32,454 nt of DNA, taken from the NCBI GenBank assembly GCA_022841365.1, contig JALHRP010000005.1:94013-126466 (forward strand). The letters run 5' to 3'. Made by a program: the position numbers and the translations under genes. Of the stretch, positions 11,078-32,454 are shown in pieces (position 1 is the stretch's first letter; each line of letters opens with the position of its first letter). The stretch is from Chitinophagaceae bacterium (lineage in GTDB: Bacteria; Bacteroidota; Bacteroidia; Chitinophagales; Chitinophagaceae). The notes below the pieces were generated by a model that saw only the letters and a list, made by a program, of their open reading frames with translations, was not told the origin of the DNA and searched no databases.

Positions 11078-11674
11078 ATCCACGAATCATTGAAGTTCCT
11101 CGGTGAGGAAGTGAATAAGTATTTGAATTTAAAAATTACAAATCCCACTCCAACTGTTGCAAGACTGGTGGTGAGTAATATATCTCTGTCATCAGATACC
11201 ACTGCAGATATTTTACCCGATATCAAAGACAAAGCTGTACTGAGTCTCATAAATGTAGAAGAAGACCGTATTGCCAAACAGCAGGAAAACTATACCAGGA
11301 CTGATCTTTCAACAGTTTATAAAAATCCGCCGCTTTATCTCAACCTGTATGTATTGTTCTCCATGAACCGCAGAAAGTATGATGATTCATTACTGCTGCT
11401 GGGAGCAATTGTACAGTTTTTTCAACACCAGTATGTATTTACACCCATCACACATCCCGGTCTCGACAGCCGAATACAACGCATTGTGGTTGATCTGCAC
11501 AATATGAGCTTTGAACAAACCAATCATATGTGGAGCATTCTTGGAGGAAAATATTTTCCTTCTGTGATGTATAAAGTGCGGCAGGTAACAATGGATGAAA
11601 ATGCAACCATCAGCGAAAGCGGCTTTATCAAAGAAATTCAGCTCAACGATCAAATGAAAATTCCGGTATCATGA
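11075..11674 (+). CDS. Pvc16/Afp16-like cap protein (DUF4255, Pvc16_N)
   Basis: A 199-aa protein of the DUF4255/Pvc16_N family. Its homologues Afp16 and Pvc16 cap the growing tube and sheath at the end distal to the baseplate and help fix particle length. The start at 11075 gives the family opening MIHESLKFLGEEVN; the frame is open further upstream from a TTG at 11000, but those residues are unlike the family. Supporting segments include LSLINVEEDRIAKQ, PPLYLNLYVLFSMN, LLGAIVQFFQHQ and FEQTNHMWSILGGKYFPSVMYKVR. It is the first gene of the cluster, whereas afp16 is the last structural gene in Afp. The next gene overlaps its stop by 4 bp (ATGA), indicating translational coupling. Confidence 0.88.
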   Translation: MIHESLKFLGEEVNKYLNLKITNPTPTVARLVVSNISLSSDTTADILPDIKDKAVLSLINVEEDRIAKQQENYTRTDLSTVYKNPPLYLNLYVLFSMNRRKYDDSLLLLGAIVQFFQHQYVFTPITHPGLDSRIQRIVVDLHNMSFEQTNHMWSILGGKYFPSVMYKVRQVTMDENATISESGFIKEIQLNDQMKIPVS

Positions 11675-12873
11675 CAACCACGTACAAAATATTGTTCATG
11701 ACGGAGCTGCTGCATGATTTCTACAAAGATGGAACCTGTCGTGATTTTCGTATAGTGCCTTCTGCTGCCACTTCAAAACTTCTGGCAAATTATAAAGCGC
11801 TGTGTAAAACAGTCGGCAACAAACTGATTGTACTGATGAAGACAGATGAAACAGGAAAGCCGTTTGTAGAACCAAAAGCTACTGATCGGTTTACTTTTTT
11901 TATGGAGTTGATGAAGCCGTTGTTTATGACCGTGTCTAACCTGGAGTTGAAAGCCTTACAAGGCAAACGTTTTTATTTTACCAATCTGCACCAGAATAAA
12001 GTGAACATTGCAGTAAATACAGATCTGCTGTATTTATCAACTCCTGTTCCTGTTTATGTTGCTGCAGCAAATTATCAGCCAGGTGATTTTGTAAAACAAT
12101 CGAATGTGGTGTATGAATGTATCCGTGCATCAACAGGCAACACACCGCCGAATACTACTTTTTGGGTAAACCGGCAAAAGCAGGAATATGCATCAGCTGC
12201 AGATCTGTTGCAGTTTATTCCGCAGCAACAGATTTTCCCGGTATCACCTGCTGCTGCAGATGTTGAAGTTACAGTTCATCAATTAAATCAGGCAACAAAT
12301 AGTTTTACTGAGCAGGTGCTGCAGCAAACACTTCATTTTGAAACAGCAGTTGATGCTGTTCCGGTTGATTTTTCTTCTTTGCCCGAAGCAAAATATAAAG
12401 TGAGCATCAACGGTAGCGAAACAATGGTTTACTTAAGCAATGATGCGGTTTATAATAACTGCTTTGCTGTAATTGATTTGTATAACCATTTATCTAATGG
12501 AAATGATTTTGCTTTTCTGGATGCCGCAGGTAAATTAAAAGATCAGTTTATTGCAGGTAAAAACAGCTGGTTAAATTTCAGTATCCGTTTTGCGAACCGT
12601 TATGCCTTCTGGAAATATCTTATTCCAAAAAAAGGAGTACAGGCCATTGACAGCAATCCCGATTATGCGTTTACAGGCAATGCAAACCCTGCTGATTTTT
12701 TTACCAGCACACATCCTATTCCGTTAAAAGAAGAACCGCATGAATTTAAAGTCACCCTTTTTCAACCGGTAAGTGCTGAACCTCCGCTGGCACCCAATCC
12801 CGATGTGCATGCATCGGGTATGCTCAGCAAAACAGGAGCAGATTACTACTGTAACATATACTTAAACTATTAA
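11671..12873 (+). CDS. eCIS-associated protein of unknown function with a CBM5/12-like motif
   Basis: I do not recognise a family for this 400-aa protein. It starts with an ATGA overlap on the Pvc16-like gene and ends 26 nt before the sheath gene, so it is almost certainly part of the system. There is no signal peptide or membrane segment. Residues ~1-125 are mixed alpha/beta. Around residues 128-168, Y-x-PGD-x-V-x5-YEC followed by P-x4-FW resembles the small chitin-binding CBM5/12 fold, also seen in phage tail proteins. The rest is beta-rich with a closing YYCNIYLNY. It could be a cap-associated, sheath-associated or surface-binding component. This is inference from position and motif only. 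Confidence 0.6.
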   Translation: MTTTYKILFMTELLHDFYKDGTCRDFRIVPSAATSKLLANYKALCKTVGNKLIVLMKTDETGKPFVEPKATDRFTFFMELMKPLFMTVSNLELKALQGKRFYFTNLHQNKVNIAVNTDLLYLSTPVPVYVAAANYQPGDFVKQSNVVYECIRASTGNTPPNTTFWVNRQKQEYASAADLLQFIPQQQIFPVSPAAADVEVTVHQLNQATNSFTEQVLQQTLHFETAVDAVPVDFSSLPEAKYKVSINGSETMVYLSNDAVYNNCFAVIDLYNHLSNGNDFAFLDAAGKLKDQFIAGKNSWLNFSIRFANRYAFWKYLIPKKGVQAIDSNPDYAFTGNANPADFFTSTHPIPLKEEPHEFKVTLFQPVSAEPPLAPNPDVHASGMLSKTGADYYCNIYLNY

Positions 12874-23671: not shown

Positions 23672-26600
23672 ATGCAGGAAAGCATTACCATACAAAAAAA
23701 TCCCGTGCTTACAGAAAGCAGTAACTATGAGTTGCTGCGTAAGAAAGGACTGGATTATATTGAACAACTCGGCAGCAGTATCTGGACCGATTACAATATT
23801 CATGACCCCGGTATTACGGTTTTGGAATTACTGACCTATGCCATTACTGATCTGGGCTACCGCACTTCCATTGATATAAAGGATTTGTTAGCTGAACTTG
23901 AATCAAAAATTCCAAAGGCTGATCCTGAACGGCAGGGCTTTTTTACTGCAAGAGAAATTTTAACTGTCAACCCATGGACAACAGCAGACTTTCGAAAACT
24001 ATTGGTTGATATCAACGGTATTAAAAACGCATGGCTAAAGTGTAAAGAATGTGCCTGTAACGATTTGCTCATCTATGCAAAATGCAGCACCAGTGTATTG
24101 CAGTATGAACCAACAGAACATCCTGTCATCATCAAAGGGTTTTATGATGTATTGGTTGAATTTGAAAATGAAGAAGCTGCCGGTGACTTGAACAGCGGAA
24201 AAGTAAAGTATAATTTCTCCTTTCCAACAACCAATGGTTTTTCTACTGCTATGATTGAAATGCGTTTGCCAGCATGGCAGCAATTGGAAGATCAGGCAGC
24301 AGTGTATAAAAACTTCAGGAGTCCAAAAAGTGAAATTCAAACAGTTACTGTTCAATTTATCTCCGGCAATAAAAATGATGATCAGGATATACCTGTTTCA
24401 GAATTATCGAATGTTTTACGCCGCCCGGTTTATGCAACCATGAAAGTTGAATTCAAACCGGATAAGGATCTTGCAGCGGTTGAAGTGTTGCAGTTTACAG
24501 ATATTGCAATGAGTGTCTGGTTCAGGAGCGACAGTGATCGTAAGCAGGCAAAACTAAAAGATATTAAGCAAGCGATCGAAGATGCATCACTCTCAGGCAT
24601 CTTTGCGAAATACCTTTCATTAATTCATCGTACAGATGAAGTAATGAAACTTACAAAAGATGAACTGCACAGTCACCGCAACCTCAGTGAAGATTATTGC
24701 AGTATTAAAGGAATAGGAGTAGAAGATATTGGTGTGTGTGCTGACATGGAAGTAGAACCTTCTGCTGATATTGAAGCGATCCTTGCAGAAGCATACTACC
24801 GGATCGATCAGTATTTCAGCCCCGATATTAAATTCTATTCCTTAAAAGAATTGATGGATGCAGGTGTACCTGTTGATGAAATATTTGAAGGTCCAAAATT
24901 GGATAATGGTTTTATTAATAATGAACAACTCGATTCAACTAATCTCAAACAGTTTATTTATACTTCTGATATCATCAACCTGCTGATGGATATTCCAGGT
25001 GTGAAAAATATCAAAAACTTTGTACTCACAAAGTTTGATGCTGATGGAAATTTGATTAAGAATGAAGAATGGGTGATGGAGATCAGCTACAACCATCAGC
25101 CAAGATTATATCTCGAAGCATCCAAAATACTAGTGTTTAAAAATGGCCTGCCATTTCTTCCGGATAAACTGGAGTTAAGTGATACACTACAGGTGATCAA
25201 AGGGCAACATGCACAACCGAAATACTCTGTGCTTGAAAATGATCTGCCTGTACCTGTTGGAAAGTATTTTCAACTGAACGATTATTTCCCGCTGCAGTAT
25301 TCATTGCCTCAAACCTATGGAGTTGGCCAGGCAGGTTTGCCATCTACTGTTTCTGATCAGCGGAGAGCACAGGCCAAACAACTGAAAGCTTATTTACTGT
25401 TTTATGAACAGTTGCTGGTGAATTATCTGGAACAACTGGCAAATGTAAAAGAGTTGTTTGCATTGGATACTTCTGTAACAAAAACGTATTTCAGTCGGAT
25501 GTTGCAGGAATCAGAGTTAAAAGATTATAATGATCTCAACAATGGAATGAATACAAGCATTCTTCATTCATTGGTTGAAACAGAGACTGTGTTCTTTGAC
25601 CGTCGTAACCGTTTTCTCAATCACCTGCTTGCCCGCTTTGCAGAAAATTTCAATGAGTATGCATTGATGTTATATGCTTATAGCAGCAGCAAAGCCATTG
25701 CAGATGCAAAACTGATCAAGGACAAAATCAACTTCCTCAAAGATTTTCCATTCATGAGTGCTAACAGGGCGAAGGCCATCAACTATAAAGATCCTGCTCA
25801 TGTTTGCAGCAGTGAAAATATTGCAGGTCTGCAATTACGCATACAACGTTTGCTGGGCATGGATGCATTCGGCGGTTTCTTTGAACTGTACGAAGAAAAA
25901 GATATAGATGGCGTTTCATTTGAACGCAGATGGAGATTAAAAGATGAAACAGGAAAAATTCAACTCAGCAGCAGTACCAACTATACAGATGCCAATCTCG
26001 ATGTCAGCGAACAAAAAGCAAAAGCCGAAATAGCTGTTGTAAAAAAATATATTACATCAACTGCACGCTATCAAATAAAGAAAGTGAAAAAATGGGTGGT
26101 GAATCTCACCGATGAAACAGGAGAAATTATTGCAACAAGAAAACAGGCCTTTGACACAAAAGCTGCTGCTGAAATTGCAAGAGATGAGATCATTGTATTT
26201 GGAAAAAAATTAATTGCTGCAGATAAAGTGTATGTAGTGGAGCATTTGTTATTACGTCCACGCAATGTTCCATCGCTTCCTGATTTTCCGCAGGGCGATC
26301 CGTTGTTAACCGTATGTATTCCGGGTAACTGTGAGTTGTGTGGCGATGAAGATCCTTATTCCTTCCGCTTAACAGTGGTGTTAAGTGGCGAAACAGGTAT
26401 TGCCAATAGTGGCATTGAATTCAGACGTTTTGCAGAACAAACCATTCGTCTGGAAGTGCCGGCACATCTGGCTGTTAAGATCTGTTGGGTATCCAATGAG
26501 CAATTGGCAGAGTTTGAAAAACTCTATTGCGATTGGCTGTCAGAACTGGCAAAGTCTGAACCCGATGCACTGGCATTACATACAAAATTAAAAGCGCTGT

Positions 26601-26707
26601 TACTGGTATTTGAACAATTGAAAAGTGTATATCCTGAAGCGAGACTGCATGATTGTATAGATGGGGATGACAGTAACAGGGTATTTCTTGATAATACGAT
26701 TATTTAA
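23672..26707 (+). CDS. Second baseplate wedge protein (Afp12/Pvc12-like)
   Basis: A 1011-aa baseplate wedge protein. The N-terminal motif SIWTDYNIHDPGITVLELLTYAITDLGYR (residues about 35-63) is the diagnostic W-x-DYN-x-HDPG-x-T-x-LELL signature of Afp12-like proteins. The middle carries long helical stretches (QLKAYLLFYEQLLVNYLEQLANVKELF). The C-terminal region includes VYVVEHLLLRPR, another family hallmark, followed by a Cys-containing beta domain. It follows the first wedge gene by 11 nt. A 158-bp gap then separates it from the fibre candidate, with no gene in the gap. Confidence 0.93.
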   Translation: MQESITIQKNPVLTESSNYELLRKKGLDYIEQLGSSIWTDYNIHDPGITVLELLTYAITDLGYRTSIDIKDLLAELESKIPKADPERQGFFTAREILTVNPWTTADFRKLLVDINGIKNAWLKCKECACNDLLIYAKCSTSVLQYEPTEHPVIIKGFYDVLVEFENEEAAGDLNSGKVKYNFSFPTTNGFSTAMIEMRLPAWQQLEDQAAVYKNFRSPKSEIQTVTVQFISGNKNDDQDIPVSELSNVLRRPVYATMKVEFKPDKDLAAVEVLQFTDIAMSVWFRSDSDRKQAKLKDIKQAIEDASLSGIFAKYLSLIHRTDEVMKLTKDELHSHRNLSEDYCSIKGIGVEDIGVCADMEVEPSADIEAILAEAYYRIDQYFSPDIKFYSLKELMDAGVPVDEIFEGPKLDNGFINNEQLDSTNLKQFIYTSDIINLLMDIPGVKNIKNFVLTKFDADGNLIKNEEWVMEISYNHQPRLYLEASKILVFKNGLPFLPDKLELSDTLQVIKGQHAQPKYSVLENDLPVPVGKYFQLNDYFPLQYSLPQTYGVGQAGLPSTVSDQRRAQAKQLKAYLLFYEQLLVNYLEQLANVKELFALDTSVTKTYFSRMLQESELKDYNDLNNGMNTSILHSLVETETVFFDRRNRFLNHLLARFAENFNEYALMLYAYSSSKAIADAKLIKDKINFLKDFPFMSANRAKAINYKDPAHVCSSENIAGLQLRIQRLLGMDAFGGFFELYEEKDIDGVSFERRWRLKDETGKIQLSSSTNYTDANLDVSEQKAKAEIAVVKKYITSTARYQIKKVKKWVVNLTDETGEIIATRKQAFDTKAAAEIARDEIIVFGKKLIAADKVYVVEHLLLRPRNVPSLPDFPQGDPLLTVCIPGNCELCGDEDPYSFRLTVVLSGETGIANSGIEFRRFAEQTIRLEVPAHLAVKICWVSNEQLAEFEKLYCDWLSELAKSEPDALALHTKLKALLLVFEQLKSVYPEARLHDCIDGDDSNRVFLDNTII

Positions 26708-26868
26708 TCGAGGCTGTTTGAAAGTATGGTTTATAACTGGCCGGGAAGGCGGAAAGAAGATAAATGTTTTTGTTCAAAGAATAATTTGAGCAAACATTTT
26801 TATTCCGCTCACCTCCTTCACTGCTACAAACCTTTTTTCTCAGTTCTCACATAAAACCTTATCATATG
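26708..26868 (+). promoter_or_regulatory. Gap before the fibre candidate, with AAACCTT-type motif
   Basis: The 158-bp gap holds no gene. CATAAAACCTTATCAT directly precedes the ATG at 26866, with AAACCTT ending 5 nt before it. I found no good TTG/TAnnTTTG promoter pair here. Confidence 0.4.
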
Positions 26869-29800
26869 CTTCCGGTACAAGTTGAGTTTCCGAAGTTCGT
26901 TGCTGATCAATTGCTCACATCAGACGATCTGAACCAGTTGTTTGGCTATCTCGATGAGCAAAACCGAATGACACGTACCAACCTTATTGGAATTGGTATT
27001 GTATGCGGATTGCAACTGCAGGTGAACAATGCCAAAACACAGGTAACCATTACAAAAGGCTGTGCTGTTACATCAGAAGGGTATCTTATTTCTGTGCATA
27101 CAAAAGCATATACGCAGTATAAAAAATACAAGGTGGATACTGCACGTGTGTATGACAAGTTTTACAAACCCGATGGAACGGGAAATAAAATTGCAATGGA
27201 TGTATGGGAACTGAAGCAACCTGCTGTTGATCCGGACCTGGAAGATATTGATGCAGACTTTTTAAAAGATAAAGTGATCCTGTTGTTTGTTGAGTTAAAA
27301 GACGAAGACAATAAAAACTGTGATCCAAACTCCTGCGATGATAAAGGAATCAATGTAACCGTTTCGTTTTTACCCATGGCCGTTTCTGTTGAAGATGCCA
27401 AACTCTTAATGGGCACAACCGGCGGAAGCTTTGGAGTGAATACCTATACTGCTTTACCGGAGCTGCGGATGAAACGTTGGGATGTACCCAATACATCTCC
27501 TGTTTACAGTCAGGATATTTTTGAAGCATATCTCAAACTGCTGGATAAACCGTTTATAGATTCTGTTGAAACTACTTTAAAAAGTATCTACTCCGTTTTC
27601 GGGCCATTTGTTGCAAATGAATATGGAGTCAATCCGTTTACAGGGTTATCTGCAAAGTTTGATTATCTGTATAATGGAAACATTAATCTCTCTCAGGTTT
27701 TGCATCTGCAATATTATTATGATCTGTTCAGCGATCTGTTACTGGCTTATCAGGAATTTAGAAAAGCAGGTACACATGTATTAAGTACTTGTTGCCCCGA
27801 TAGTGATCTGTTTCCAAGACATGTATTATTGGGCGAAGCGGTTCCATCTGAAACAAGTGGTATTCTTCCTTACAGGCATTACTTTATTTATTCGCCGTTG
27901 TTTGATCAGCACGGAATGCTGGGCGAATTAAAAAGCCTGTTCAAACGATTGGTGCTGATGATTGAGCAGTTCTTTTTACCAACTGTTGCAGGGAATAATA
28001 CAAAAGAAGATACGTTTCTTCGAATTACACCAAGTATGCTGTGGGATGTGCCGCTTTCACATAAAGCCATTCCATATTACTATCAAGTAAACAGCGGTGC
28101 CCAGCCACTTTATCTCAGCTGGGATCACAGAAGAACGTTGTTGAATGATGCTAAGAGAAATCTTTCATATCATGCTATTCAATACAATGCATCCGATGAG
28201 TTTGTTACTTCTCCGTTACAATATGATTTAGAGCCGTATAATTTTTTACGGGTGGAAGGGATTGTAGGAAAATCGTATGTGCATGTACTGAAACAGGTAA
28301 AGCAACAGATACAGAAGAATCGTTTGCCAGTTGATATTATTGCGTTGAGTACAGATACAGGAGCAGGGTTTAGTAATCGTCTCAATTCAAACAGCAAGTT
28401 ACAGGGGTCAAAGGATTCTTTGGAAATGCTTTGTCATTTTCAGGATATGGAATCAATGTATGACAGTATGCGTCGTGAAATTTTATGCATGCTCTGTAAA
28501 GAATTGAAATACTACTATGATTTTACGTTTCCATTAGTCAATGCGTTTTTACGTAAAATGACCTTGGCCGGTGAAGTATCGCAGGTTGATTTGTTTGATG
28601 TGTGCAGCAAAGGATATGTAATTAAAGACAGGTCATTGGGTATGATGATCGAATTTCTGCATCGCAAAGGTCTTACAGATGAAACCCTCACACTTGAAAC
28701 TTTTTTTGAAGCCTTTGGTGTAAATGTGCAGGATGCAAACAATGATGATATACCGGATAATTTAACGGGGCAAATGTCAACCATCTATCTGGCATTGCTC
28801 AACTTCTTTAAAATACCATTAGGCATTATCCGCCTCTCAACATTGTTAACAGAAGATTTGGCTGAGTTTGATGTGAAAGCTTACTGCAATGCAACGGACA
28901 AACTTGGAGAGTATGCAAAAAGTTTGAAAGCACTCTTCAGCATCTTTACAGGTTCGCAACAATCTAAAACAACAGATCCTGCTACTGAAGTAAATACGGA
29001 TGCACAACCACCGGGAGTTGCAGGAGAGGTTAATACAACGAACAATACAAACAGAATACTTGTAACGAATAAGCGCAGTAATTCGCTGGCAATGCTTGCT
29101 TCATCCAACAACGGATTTGTAATGATCCTGCTGTTGTTACTGATGATCGAAGATTTAATGGATCACCTGGATGTACTCATCTACAACTGTAAATGCAGTG
29201 CGCTGCTTTCTTTAAAGAAAGATTACATGAAGCGTTATCTGATGTTAACACGCCTTCGTCAGTTTGGGTATTTCACCAAGCTTCATCCCGGTATTCAACA
29301 CAAAGCAGGCGTGCCAATGGGAGGTACATTTATTATTGTTTATCATTCCAGAAAAAAACGTGCAGGCGGAACAATACTCAACAGAGCTGCAGAAATCAAC
29401 GAATTTACAGCAGAAAGAAAGATGGATGATCATCGGATGATGATGAGTACAGCCGACGCTGTAGAAAGAGAAACACTTGCAGCCGGATTTATTTTAGATG
29501 AAGATGCAAACCCTGTTGCAGGTGCTGAAATATCCGTTGCTGAAACAGGTGAAAGCACTGTGTCTGCAGCAAATGGATCGTTTGCATTTAGCAGCAGCAT
29601 TGTTCCGTATACACTGCTGGTAGAAGCGCCTGGTTATGAGTTGTACGAAGAATTAAAAACCGATGGCCACACAAACATGCGTATCATACTCAAAGCAGCA
29701 AATGAAAATGTGCTGGATGAATTGCAGCAGGGAGTGGTGATTGCAGATTTTTATTTGCCCTACAGATGTTGTTCTGATTGTCCGCCGATACAATACATTG

Positions 29801-31299
29801 TTCAGGATAAGCCGGCACCCGATGTTCCGAACAAAGGCCCGGTTGTAAATGCAGGTCCTGATCAAACCATTACATTGCCCACCGACTTTGTTACGTTAAG
29901 CGGATCTGCATCAGATCCTGATGGAAGCATTGCATCTTTTCAATGGATTAAAAAATCAGGCCCAACACTTCCGGCCGGATCAATTGTTACAGATACAAGT
30001 GCACAAACAACAGTAAAAAATCTTGTACAGGGCGTGTATGTGTTTGAATTAACTGTAACGGATAATACAGGTTCGTTTACAAGAGATGACGTGCAGATTA
30101 CAGTAAACCCTGCACCTCCTCCTGAAAATAAACCGCCTCTTGCAGTTGCCAAGGCCACGTTGTTTCCTGCTGCTGCAAATGCAATTCAATTAGATGGAAA
30201 GGATTCAACAGATGAAGATGGTACAATTGACAGTTACAAATGGATTCAGCTTGATGGTCCTACAGTTGCCATTGACGGTGCATCGCTGGTTACAGCAATT
30301 GTAAAAGACATGCAGCCGGCAACATATAAGTTTCAGTTGATGGTAACAGATAATAACAATGCAACAGGCAAGGCAGAAGTAAGCATCACTATTGATGCAC
30401 CTCCTAATCAACCGCCAAAAGCAAACGCAGGGCAAAATCAAATTGTAACTATTCCTCCAAATGGAACAATACAATTAAACGGCAGTGCATCTACAGATCC
30501 GGAAGGAAAAGCACTCACTTATAGCTGGACAGTTTTGCCAGGCAGTGCCAACAATCCAAATATTGTTGATCCCGGAAAAGATATTACGGAAGTTACCGGA
30601 CTGGTTGAAGGCGATTATCAATTTGAATTGAAAGTTACAGATGATCAGCAGGCAAGTGATACAGCAACTGTTACCGTGAAGGTGATTATTCGTGAAGTGG
30701 TCATTAACAAATCATGCGGACCGCTTTCTGAAATCATTAAGCGATTCGATGAATTTGAAACAATTGATCCGAGAAGGTTCCCTGTATTCATTAATGCAGA
30801 TGGCTTCAGTTCTTTTGGTAATGTGAAAGAGTTTTTTGCAATGATGCAGAACATCGTCAACAGTTCAACAGACGATCAGCTGAACTTTTTTGGATCGGTT
30901 ATCAATGGTACAACAGTTCAGGATTCGTTGATCAAATGGTTTAATGAACTGCAAAAGCTGATTGTTGAACGGAAAGATCTTCGATTGCTTGCATTGATCT
31001 TATACCGCATCCTCCATCAACTGGCCATGTATATTGTGTGTATACAGAAAGAAGATTTTGATATTGCCAAAGTACCGATGCAAAAAGTCTTTACACTTAT
31101 TCTGCGGCATGTAAAGCAGTGGGTAGAATTGATTTCAACAGGTGTGTTTACAGCTGCTGAAATAAAGCAGGTGAAAGAAATGGGAGATGATGTTGAAAAA
31201 GAAATGCAAAGAGTAGTCGCAAATGGAGAAGCATCATCCAAGCCTAAATATCTAAAAATGCTCAAGCAAATTCTTGACCTGATCAGAAGTATTCCATAA
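26866..31299 (+). CDS. Multidomain fibre candidate with PKD domains (Afp13 position)
   Basis: A 1477-aa protein between the wedge and tape-measure genes, where Afp encodes the tail fibre Afp13. No signal peptide is present, so export through Sec is unlikely. Residues ~1-150 (FVADQLLTSDDLNQLFGYLDEQNR...) may be a baseplate-docking domain. Residues ~150-740 are mostly helical. A strongly hydrophobic stretch lies near 750-765. Residues ~871-945 look like a carboxypeptidase-regulatory-like beta domain, followed by a CCSDCPP cluster near 967. Three PKD/Ig-like domains span ~991-1275 (NAGPDQTITLP, ASDPDGSI, ELTVTDN). The C-terminal ~200 residues are helical. The target-binding role is inferred from position and fold. 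Confidence 0.7.
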   Translation: MLPVQVEFPKFVADQLLTSDDLNQLFGYLDEQNRMTRTNLIGIGIVCGLQLQVNNAKTQVTITKGCAVTSEGYLISVHTKAYTQYKKYKVDTARVYDKFYKPDGTGNKIAMDVWELKQPAVDPDLEDIDADFLKDKVILLFVELKDEDNKNCDPNSCDDKGINVTVSFLPMAVSVEDAKLLMGTTGGSFGVNTYTALPELRMKRWDVPNTSPVYSQDIFEAYLKLLDKPFIDSVETTLKSIYSVFGPFVANEYGVNPFTGLSAKFDYLYNGNINLSQVLHLQYYYDLFSDLLLAYQEFRKAGTHVLSTCCPDSDLFPRHVLLGEAVPSETSGILPYRHYFIYSPLFDQHGMLGELKSLFKRLVLMIEQFFLPTVAGNNTKEDTFLRITPSMLWDVPLSHKAIPYYYQVNSGAQPLYLSWDHRRTLLNDAKRNLSYHAIQYNASDEFVTSPLQYDLEPYNFLRVEGIVGKSYVHVLKQVKQQIQKNRLPVDIIALSTDTGAGFSNRLNSNSKLQGSKDSLEMLCHFQDMESMYDSMRREILCMLCKELKYYYDFTFPLVNAFLRKMTLAGEVSQVDLFDVCSKGYVIKDRSLGMMIEFLHRKGLTDETLTLETFFEAFGVNVQDANNDDIPDNLTGQMSTIYLALLNFFKIPLGIIRLSTLLTEDLAEFDVKAYCNATDKLGEYAKSLKALFSIFTGSQQSKTTDPATEVNTDAQPPGVAGEVNTTNNTNRILVTNKRSNSLAMLASSNNGFVMILLLLLMIEDLMDHLDVLIYNCKCSALLSLKKDYMKRYLMLTRLRQFGYFTKLHPGIQHKAGVPMGGTFIIVYHSRKKRAGGTILNRAAEINEFTAERKMDDHRMMMSTADAVERETLAAGFILDEDANPVAGAEISVAETGESTVSAANGSFAFSSSIVPYTLLVEAPGYELYEELKTDGHTNMRIILKAANENVLDELQQGVVIADFYLPYRCCSDCPPIQYIVQDKPAPDVPNKGPVVNAGPDQTITLPTDFVTLSGSASDPDGSIASFQWIKKSGPTLPAGSIVTDTSAQTTVKNLVQGVYVFELTVTDNTGSFTRDDVQITVNPAPPPENKPPLAVAKATLFPAAANAIQLDGKDSTDEDGTIDSYKWIQLDGPTVAIDGASLVTAIVKDMQPATYKFQLMVTDNNNATGKAEVSITIDAPPNQPPKANAGQNQIVTIPPNGTIQLNGSASTDPEGKALTYSWTVLPGSANNPNIVDPGKDITEVTGLVEGDYQFELKVTDDQQASDTATVTVKVIIREVVINKSCGPLSEIIKRFDEFETIDPRRFPVFINADGFSSFGNVKEFFAMMQNIVNSSTDDQLNFFGSVINGTTVQDSLIKWFNELQKLIVERKDLRLLALILYRILHQLAMYIVCIQKEDFDIAKVPMQKVFTLILRHVKQWVELISTGVFTAAEIKQVKEMGDDVEKEMQRVVANGEASSKPKYLKMLKQILDLIRSIP

Positions 31300-32454
31300 T
31301 GAATTCTTCCATGAACCATATTATTAAAACTGCATCACTCGATTTCGTATACAACGGAAAAACAGATGGCTTTGCGTTTCAACAGAAAGTAAAAGAATGG
31401 TTTGAAGAATTCATGCTTGCACTTGATCCGGAATTTGAAGCGTTATGTGATGAGGATTCACTGATCAGCATTGATCAGTTGGAGTTAGAGCTGGAACTTT
31501 CAGGAACAGACTGGAGACAACAGGCTGCACATAAAGTAAGAGAGCAGTTAAAAGACAAGCTTCGCCTAATCAGAGCGGGTACAATTTCACAGAAAGGGTA
31601 TGTTGAAAAAAAGATCCACATGCATTTTAAAGATTCATTTTTATTTTATCTGCAAAAAGGATACCTGCCCTGGCAGGCTACATCAACAGATACAGCAGAA
31701 TGGAGTAAACAACTGGAAGAACTTGTAATGCAGGCCGATGAAGAATTTATAAGAGAGCTGAAGCAGGTGTTGAAAATTTCCTCATCGGTTCAGCAACGAT
31801 TGATGTCTGTAATACCCTTTCAGTCTGCCATACAACTGTTCCGGTTTGCTAAAGCAGATGGATTAGCTGCCGGCAAACAACTTGTATATGATCTGCAGAT
31901 GCTTATGAAAATTGCTGTGGTGCATCATCTCAGCGAAATCAGACAGTTAATTTATCAGTTGTTTCTGAATGATCTTGCAGCTAAGGTTGATCGTAAACAG
32001 GTGCAGAAGGAATTCATTTCTGCTTTTCGGAAAAAGTTGGGCAGTCATCCATCGCTGTTGTCAAGACTTCGTGATATTAATTTTCAAACAGAGTTGTTTC
32101 AGGATATTCAAAAAGAACTTTCAGAAGAAAAGAAAAACCAAAGGTCAAAAATATCAAAATCCGAATCAACCAAAATTCAACAACAGAAAGATGAGCAACT
32201 GCTTTTATTAAAACAGCAACATGCAAAAGAAGCGGCAGGTGAAGAGATTTATATCAACAATGCAGGATTGGTGATTCTTGCAGCATTTATTCCGGCGTTG
32301 TTTGAAAAGACCGGGCTTGCAGTTGCCAATGAAATTAAATATCTTGATAGGGCTGTTTGTTTTCTGCAATTTCTGGTAACCGATAAAGTAACTATGCCGG
32401 AGTATGAATTGGTACTCCCTAAAATAATATGCGGTGTGCCAATTGAGCAAACGA
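31299..32454 (+). CDS. Contractile injection system tape-measure protein (Afp14-like, 3' partial)
   Basis: The frame is open to the end of the window (about 385 residues), so the C-terminus is missing. It begins with an ATG overlapping the preceding stop (TAATG); a second in-frame ATG at 31311 gives MNHIIKTASLDF, which fits the family opening better, so either start is possible. The last part, YINNAGLVILAAFIPALFEKTGL followed by YLDRAVCFLQFLV and PEYELVLPKIICGVP (from about residue 318), is the signature of the CIS tape-measure family. The middle is helical and charged. It sets tube length during assembly. The gene after it, outside the window, would be expected to be the Afp15-like ATPase. 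Confidence 0.88.
   Translation, partial: MNSSMNHIIKTASLDFVYNGKTDGFAFQQKVKEWFEEFMLALDPEFEALCDEDSLISIDQLELELELSGTDWRQQAAHKVREQLKDKLRLIRAGTISQKGYVEKKIHMHFKDSFLFYLQKGYLPWQATSTDTAEWSKQLEELVMQADEEFIRELKQVLKISSSVQQRLMSVIPFQSAIQLFRFAKADGLAAGKQLVYDLQMLMKIAVVHHLSEIRQLIYQLFLNDLAAKVDRKQVQKEFISAFRKKLGSHPSLLSRLRDINFQTELFQDIQKELSEEKKNQRSKISKSESTKIQQQKDEQLLLLKQQHAKEAAGEEIYINNAGLVILAAFIPALFEKTGLAVANEIKYLDRAVCFLQFLVTDKVTMPEYELVLPKIICGVPIEQT

Follow-up and report, generated by a model that had tools for sequence, protein, structure and literature searches.

Tail fibres decide the target to which an injection particle attaches, and according to PMC12923769 fibre genes remain unidentified in most operons of extracellular contractile injection systems (eCIS). 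Here, we describe a gene for such a candidate fibre in a 32,454-nucleotide stretch of DNA from a Chitinophagaceae bacterium (contig JALHRP010000005.1, G000:C5:94013-126466 in our numbering), which as a whole is called the window. Very probably, the encoded protein of 1477 amino acids serves this Bacteroidota bacterium as the tail fibre with which a phage-tail-like injection particle (eCIS) binds its target. In the window, the gene order is cis12, fibre, tape measure, and the features concerned are the following, with positions counted from the first letter of the window.

26866..31299, plus strand: putative Cis19/Alg19-type tail-fibre gene, ATG start, 1477 amino acids
26866..28356, plus strand: fibre residues 1-497, shoulder/neck, with homology to Alg19 (9wt0) and All3314 (7b5h); slow-evolving, presumably docks on the baseplate
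28357..28965, plus strand: fibre residues 498-700, variable middle, probably helical; occupancy and conservation drop past residue 500, low-confidence model
29116..29148, plus strand: fibre residues 751-761, hydrophobic run FVMILLLLLMI leading into IEDLMDHLDVLIYNCKC; probably no transmembrane segment
29281..29352, plus strand: fibre residues 806-829, family motif HPGxxHxAGVxxGGTFxxVY, assigned by conservation; also in 9wt0 and 7b5h
29485..29703, plus strand: fibre residues 874-946, carboxypeptidase-regulatory-like beta domain (Pfam CarboxypepD_reg) between two conserved motifs
29731..29805, plus strand: fibre residues 956-980, ADFYLPYRCCSDCPP motif (CCxxC), from the family alignment
29851..30684, plus strand: fibre residues 996-1273, PKD array of three K319L-like domains (Pfam)
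30712..31296, plus strand: fibre residues 1283-1477, predicted all-helical C-terminal domain (AlphaFold2 model of 1275-1477), in a subset of related fibres
23672..26707, plus strand: cis12, baseplate wedge gene, 1011 amino acids, presumed docking partner; weak TIGR02243 match, homology to All3315 and Alg12 in the C-terminal part
26474..26704, plus strand: Cis12 residues 935-1011, C-terminal tail (…YPxAxLHDC…, ending in SVYPEARLHDCIDGDDSNRVFLDNTII), which tracks the Cis19-type fibre
31299..32453, plus strand: start of the tape-measure gene (CIS_TMP), overlapping the fibre stop codon and cut by the contig end; intact homologue in L003
11000..23660, plus strand: remainder of the structural cluster of the eCIS (Pvc16_N, 400-amino-acid open reading frame, sheath, two tubes, CIS_tube, spike, PAAR, gp25, Baseplate_J)

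The open reading frame of the fibre, first called in an initial annotation made from the DNA letters, was confirmed at its full length, strand and start codon, and the modules described there were all recovered. Its three PKD/Ig-like domains correspond to three stretches of the K319L-like PKD family in Pfam (PF22352; E 2.3e-59, 197.8 bits against a gathering score of 27), with array bounds of 994-1273 from Pfam and a PDB sequence search, and its beta domain to one CarboxypepD_reg match (residues 874-936/946, E 4.2e-10). The reported Cys-Cys-x-x-Cys cluster is present as C968, C969 and C972, within a conserved ADFxLPYxCCSDCPP motif; its placement was imprecise, as it sits after the beta domain and directly before PKD1. 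As for the long helical regions, the C-terminal one is borne out by a confident model, and those within residues 490-985 appear only in a low-confidence one. KIAA0319L/AAVR shares the Pfam PKD family (E 2.4e-30 over fibre residues 994-1272); this is the only domain family in common, and nothing points to a common ligand.

The open reading frame is not a product of chance, because a match to residues 1-675 turned up in 34 of the 294 genomes from the family and in 58 of the 395 from the phylum (own genome counted in both). Around the match in each of the other genomes a stretch was fetched: 33 from the family set, 55 from the phylum set and two on second contigs, 90 in total. All 90 are eCIS loci: cis12 is present in 87 and cis11 in 86, and 78 hold at least 8 of the 11 window components, with reversed-open-reading-frame decoys giving 0 matches. 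The three stretches without cis12 are contig ends that carry the tape measure. In 84 of the 90, the fibre follows cis12 on the same strand at a distance below 300 bp; in the remaining three with cis12 the mechanically called open reading frames overlap (two) or are separated by a gap of 510 bp (one). The initial annotation had stated that an N-terminal domain found mainly outside eCIS loci would speak against a fibre; since 90 of 90 stretches are eCIS loci, this is not what was found, and a general adhesin using the domain outside eCIS was not seen among them. A tandem pair of fibre genes within one cluster occurs in L143 and in L145.

In AFP gene order, the Afp13 slot follows cis12. The window protein, lying between cis12 and the tape-measure gene, indeed takes this position, as had been claimed. 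An Afp13-type fibre was nevertheless rejected: the CIS13_fam model (NF053767) scored 17.3, 18.7 and 20.2 bits, far under its curated cut-off of 370 bits. This faint similarity to Afp13/Pvc13 (17-20 bits, fibre residues 11-96) recurs in 6 of 20 family N-termini, and, as a difference from those fibres, no adenovirus-type shaft family appeared in the Pfam result.

The closest characterized proteins lie elsewhere. In a phmmer search, the fibre matched PDB 9wt0 (Alg19) with E 5.4e-51 and PDB 7b5h (All3314/Cis19) with E 1.8e-43, and a profile of 20 N-terminal parts scored the two almost equally (E 8.5e-90 and 9.7e-90). The match to Alg19 of the Algoriphagus machipongonensis system AlgoCIS spans residues 5-597, 777-837 and 946-980, thus including the motifs and CCSDC; Alg19 is also of similar length (1443 versus 1477 amino acids), and its partner Alg12 is homologous to the window Cis12. 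PDB 9WT0 represents the AlgoCIS tail fibre in complex with its wedge (PMC13314943), and in the thylakoid-anchored contractile injection system (tCIS) of Anabaena the crown protein, Cis19, is All3314 (PMC8894136). Homology to All3314 likewise covers the N-terminal part, and its partner All3315 bears the same Cis12 tail as the window; unlike the window fibre, its aligned segment lacks CCxxC, and the Anabaena system is cell-bound through Cis13. Even closer relatives are a fibre in a Chitinophagaceae metagenome-assembled genome (95% identical) and one in Lacibacter luteus (71%), which points to a Chitinophagaceae-like host.

Fibres of contractile injection systems (CIS) have been divided into a Cis13 type and an Alg19 type (PMC12210884), and a class eBAP4 with tCIS-crown-like shafts has been linked to PKD, VWA and carboxypeptidase-regulatory modules (PMC12923769). 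The window fibre combines tCIS-crown (All3314) homology with PKD and CarboxypepD_reg modules in one protein; by sequence it is a member of the published Cis19/Alg19 (eBAP4) class, the eBAP4 part of this assignment being made through a shared reference protein. Since the Alg19/Cis19/eBAP4 class is published, the fibre is of a kind already described and its architecture is not new. In passages of PMC12998442, nothing about this fibre was found.

A phage origin was considered and rejected, with 0 matches of residues 1-834 in 50,697 phage records (tblastn, E 1e-5). PHROGs gave a single unnamed family (E 0.015) inside the PKD part, and L154, a weak viral-contig locus, matched with 33% over residues 9-77. 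Among 72,556 plasmid records, one matched: a Pararhizobium replicon with 38.9% over 73%, which hints at transfer between phyla. This match (NZ_CP149511.1:1081802-1084069) covers the N-terminal half of the fibre, with no feature annotated there in an incomplete gene table.

We estimate a probability of roughly 0.87 that the protein is a Cis19/Alg19-type eCIS tail fibre that docks on Cis12 and binds target cells. By analogy with AlgoCIS, residues ~1-500 (the shoulder/neck) would form a homotrimer that bridges two wedges and docks on the C-terminal tail of Cis12, while the middle helical part, the CarboxypepD_reg-like domain, the three PKD domains and the C-terminal domain would point outward and bind a structure on the target surface. 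Target binding would then tilt the fibres as the first step of firing. For AlgoCIS, it has been reported that the Alg19 homotrimer bridges two baseplate wedges and that particles without Alg19 are rarely seen bound to cells (PMC13314943). The receptor-binding role proposed in the initial annotation is made likely by this homology, and the PKD and C-terminal domains are predicted, from sequence features, to be the adhesive parts.

Several points weigh against this assignment. The PKD set and the C-terminal helical domain of the window fibre are unmatched by sequence in Alg19; residues 490-985 yielded a poor model (predicted local distance difference test score, pLDDT, 35); and the system of the Anabaena homologue stays in the cell. 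Alternatively, the protein might be pictured as a crown-like part acting inside the producing cell during stress or programmed lysis, with the PKD domains binding the cell's own envelope. Such a part would agree with the tCIS crown Cis19 being among the nearest solved relatives, and exposure in ghost cells has been proposed for tCIS (PMC8894136). However, Alg19, which attaches to foreign bacterial cells, is equally close by profile, and no tCIS-like anchor was seen: Cis13 was found above cut-off in 0 of 41 family genomes (26 without the fibre and 15 of the 34 with it), a survey in which the control genomes were also negative. Bacteroidota are not known to have thylakoids. We therefore consider a crown acting inside the cell quite improbable, and retain the target-binding tail fibre.

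The window Cis12 was found in 60 of 294 family genomes, including all 34 that bear the fibre. The other 26 correspond to 28 fetched places, with G006 contig C3, a fibre-less place in a fibre-bearing genome, left out; the fibre N-terminal search, with the Cis13 model also used, found no fibre match in these 28 stretches. A hidden Markov model (HMM) of the tail was built from the last 90 residues of 54 Cis12 proteins from fibre-bearing loci outside the family (88 positions). It scored 15.3-77.8 bits in the 33 fibre-bearing family Cis12 proteins (73.8 bits in the window) and at most 13.3 bits in the 28 fibre-less ones. In 32 of the 33 proteins with a fibre the match ran to the end of the model, reaching at least position 85 of 88; this was so in 0 of the 28 without one, none of which passed position 74. 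At equal scores for the Cis12 body (272-347 bits), the tail end was reached in 10 of 11 fibre-bearing versus 0 of 17 fibre-less proteins. The tail and the fibre thus co-occur near-strictly. In fibre-less loci, the tape measure directly follows cis12 in 8 of the 9 places looked at (out of 28). A regular expression run on the C-terminal 75 residues recovered 29 of the 33 positives, 0 of the 28 negatives and only 21 of the 54 training sequences; we relied on the HMM because many training sequences have residues after the tail or a different spacing.

According to PMC13314943, the C-terminal loop of Alg12 touches three Alg19 protomers. Because the Cis12 tail co-occurs with the fibre and the Alg12 loop contacts Alg19, the tail is, by analogy, a probable docking element for the fibre. 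The alignment of the window Cis12 with All3315 extends through the tail, and the YPTGRLYDC part of Alg12 aligns weakly in a separate segment; the alignments to SalCis12 and Pvc12 stop short of the tail, as does the 9qgl range. Other observations pull in the opposite direction. By itself, the Alg12 segment reaches only 7.6 bits; the two classes come close at their edge, with L061 (15.3 bits) and L066 (15.8 bits) next to the fibre-less L166 (13.3 bits); the Cis12 match in L061, the sole exception, ends at model position 56 of 88; and the tail counts, as related genomes are not independent events, do not amount to significance levels. L061 (G029:C15) also has a short fibre, of 760 amino acids. 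Apart from the tail, Cis12 residues 737-834 (window 25880-26173) show weak matches to HVO_2922-like (E 0.024) and DUF1508 (E 0.0015) families.

We found no statement of this co-occurrence in the main texts of the CIS literature examined. The short Cis12 tail is a simple, testable mark of clusters with an Alg19-type fibre. What is new here is that the Cis12 tail tracks the fibre, and that the last 200 residues of the fibre form a confidently predicted helical domain. A wider proposal is that the LHDC tail would be a general docking plug of Cis19-type fibres, gained and lost with the fibre cassette that sits between cis12 and the tape measure, and that the C-terminal domain would be the previously undescribed adhesin tip of one Bacteroidota fibre group. 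We hold this tentatively, at slightly short of an even chance; if true, the fibre type could be read from the wedge protein Cis12.

The conservation of the fibre was assessed on 86 aligned fibres, 9 further fibre open reading frames having been excluded (8 at a locus edge, 1 below 680 amino acids). Of the 86, 84 are distinct (L003 equals L035, and L004 equals L037). Across the alignment, residues 1-497 are conserved and for the most part occupied, and residues 500-800 are variable. The HPGxxHxAGVxxGGTF and ADFxLPY motifs are again highly conserved, with G815, V816 and T821 in 86 of 86 fibres, and the distal half is modular. Around the CCxxC motif, D961 occurs in all 86 and P965 in 82, with the cysteines less constant (C968 in 54, C969 in 50, C972 in 32), unlike the near-invariant Cys 152 (84), Cys 157 (83), Cys 309 (79) and Cys 47 (77). 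Compared with L036, a fibre from the same genus, the shoulder is 86% identical, the C-terminal domain 63%, PKD1, PKD2 and PKD3 64%, 51% and 64%, and the linker at 701-758 29%. A Pfam scan of 43 of the 55 representatives found PKD_4 in 10, CarboxypepD_reg in 10 and K319L-like PKD in 5; because few of the 43 match each family, the module combination of the window fibre is a minority set on a common base.

The poorly conserved linker precedes the hydrophobic stretch, which the initial annotation had placed near residues 750-765 and which we found as the run at 751-761. Classically, a mean of 1.6 over 19 residues is taken as the cut-off for transmembrane segments. The fibre's most hydrophobic 19-residue window, at 743-761, exceeds this with a Kyte-Doolittle mean of 1.96, which could suit a fibre serving as the membrane anchor of a cell-bound system, comparable to Cis13 of the Anabaena tCIS. 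The stretch is kept in the same-genus fibres L035 and L037, weaker in L036 (1.26), and has a partial counterpart (1.44, ...GAIMLFLFVKEDLFDH) in the more distant L099. Yet the strictly hydrophobic run is just 11 residues long, with SSNNG before it and the charged EDLMDH after it, and nowhere among the 86 aligned fibres does such a run reach 15. At the same place, a mean above 1.6 is seen in 3 of the 84 distinct fibres (the window's own, L035 and L037, which belong to one genus) and above 1.2 in 6 of them, L036 and L099 included; L038 reaches 1.16 and L039 0.21. Over residues 497-806 as a whole, 1.6 is passed by 11 of 86 fibres, some of them elsewhere in this region. Moreover, the anchor in tCIS is Cis13 and not the Cis19 homologue. 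A membrane anchor is therefore unlikely, and the suggestion that the segment holds particles to a membrane finds no support in these measures, which were made with no dedicated transmembrane predictor. The window protein is now assigned as a fibre, in which the hydrophobic stretch is unlikely to have a membrane role; as also suggested in the initial annotation, it may be buried in a trimer.

In the AlphaFold2 model of residues 1275-1477 (three-sequence alignment), the C-terminus forms a helical domain with a pLDDT of 90.2 and a predicted template modelling score of 0.88; fold searches with this model gave no clear structural relative. Of the 294 family genomes, 9 hold a match to the domain, every time inside the fibre open reading frame; of 390 phylum genomes, 3 do (the own genome, G377 in its fibre, and one with a doubtful match containing four stops). 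Among 3571 open reading frames of fibre loci, its profile matched fibres only (E <1). In total, it occurs in 9 of 84 distinct aligned fibres and in L069, ten related fibres. A variant compatible with the target-binding fibre would place specificity in this domain and use the PKD domains as spacers. L099, a fibre in which Pfam finds nothing at E 0.01, retains the domain, and so do L040 and L041, whose PKD matches are different ones. Its restriction to 9 of 84 distinct fibres and L069, together with PKD domains that diverge at least as fast, makes this division of labour possible but doubtful.

The rest of the cluster lies upstream of cis12 and includes two gp19-type tubes and a Baseplate_J protein of 1269 amino acids (Pfam). 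The 400-amino-acid open reading frame (11671-12873), which lies between those for the Pvc16_N protein and the sheath, matches no Pfam family at E 0.01. Downstream, contig C72 of the same genome (L196, G000:C72:1-12000) opens with a matching tape-measure gene end, followed by a CHAP protein, an 1803-amino-acid eCIS_core/pre-toxin protein, two more eCIS_core proteins and an AAA ATPase, and is probably the continuation of the window's cluster. Another fibre fragment, with a tape-measure gene and an eCIS_core protein, lies on a short contig (L068, G000:C116:1-5240). Its G+C content is 0.44-0.49 versus about 0.40 in the window, and the window sheath matches only itself in the genome; this contig may represent a second partial cluster or a contaminant.
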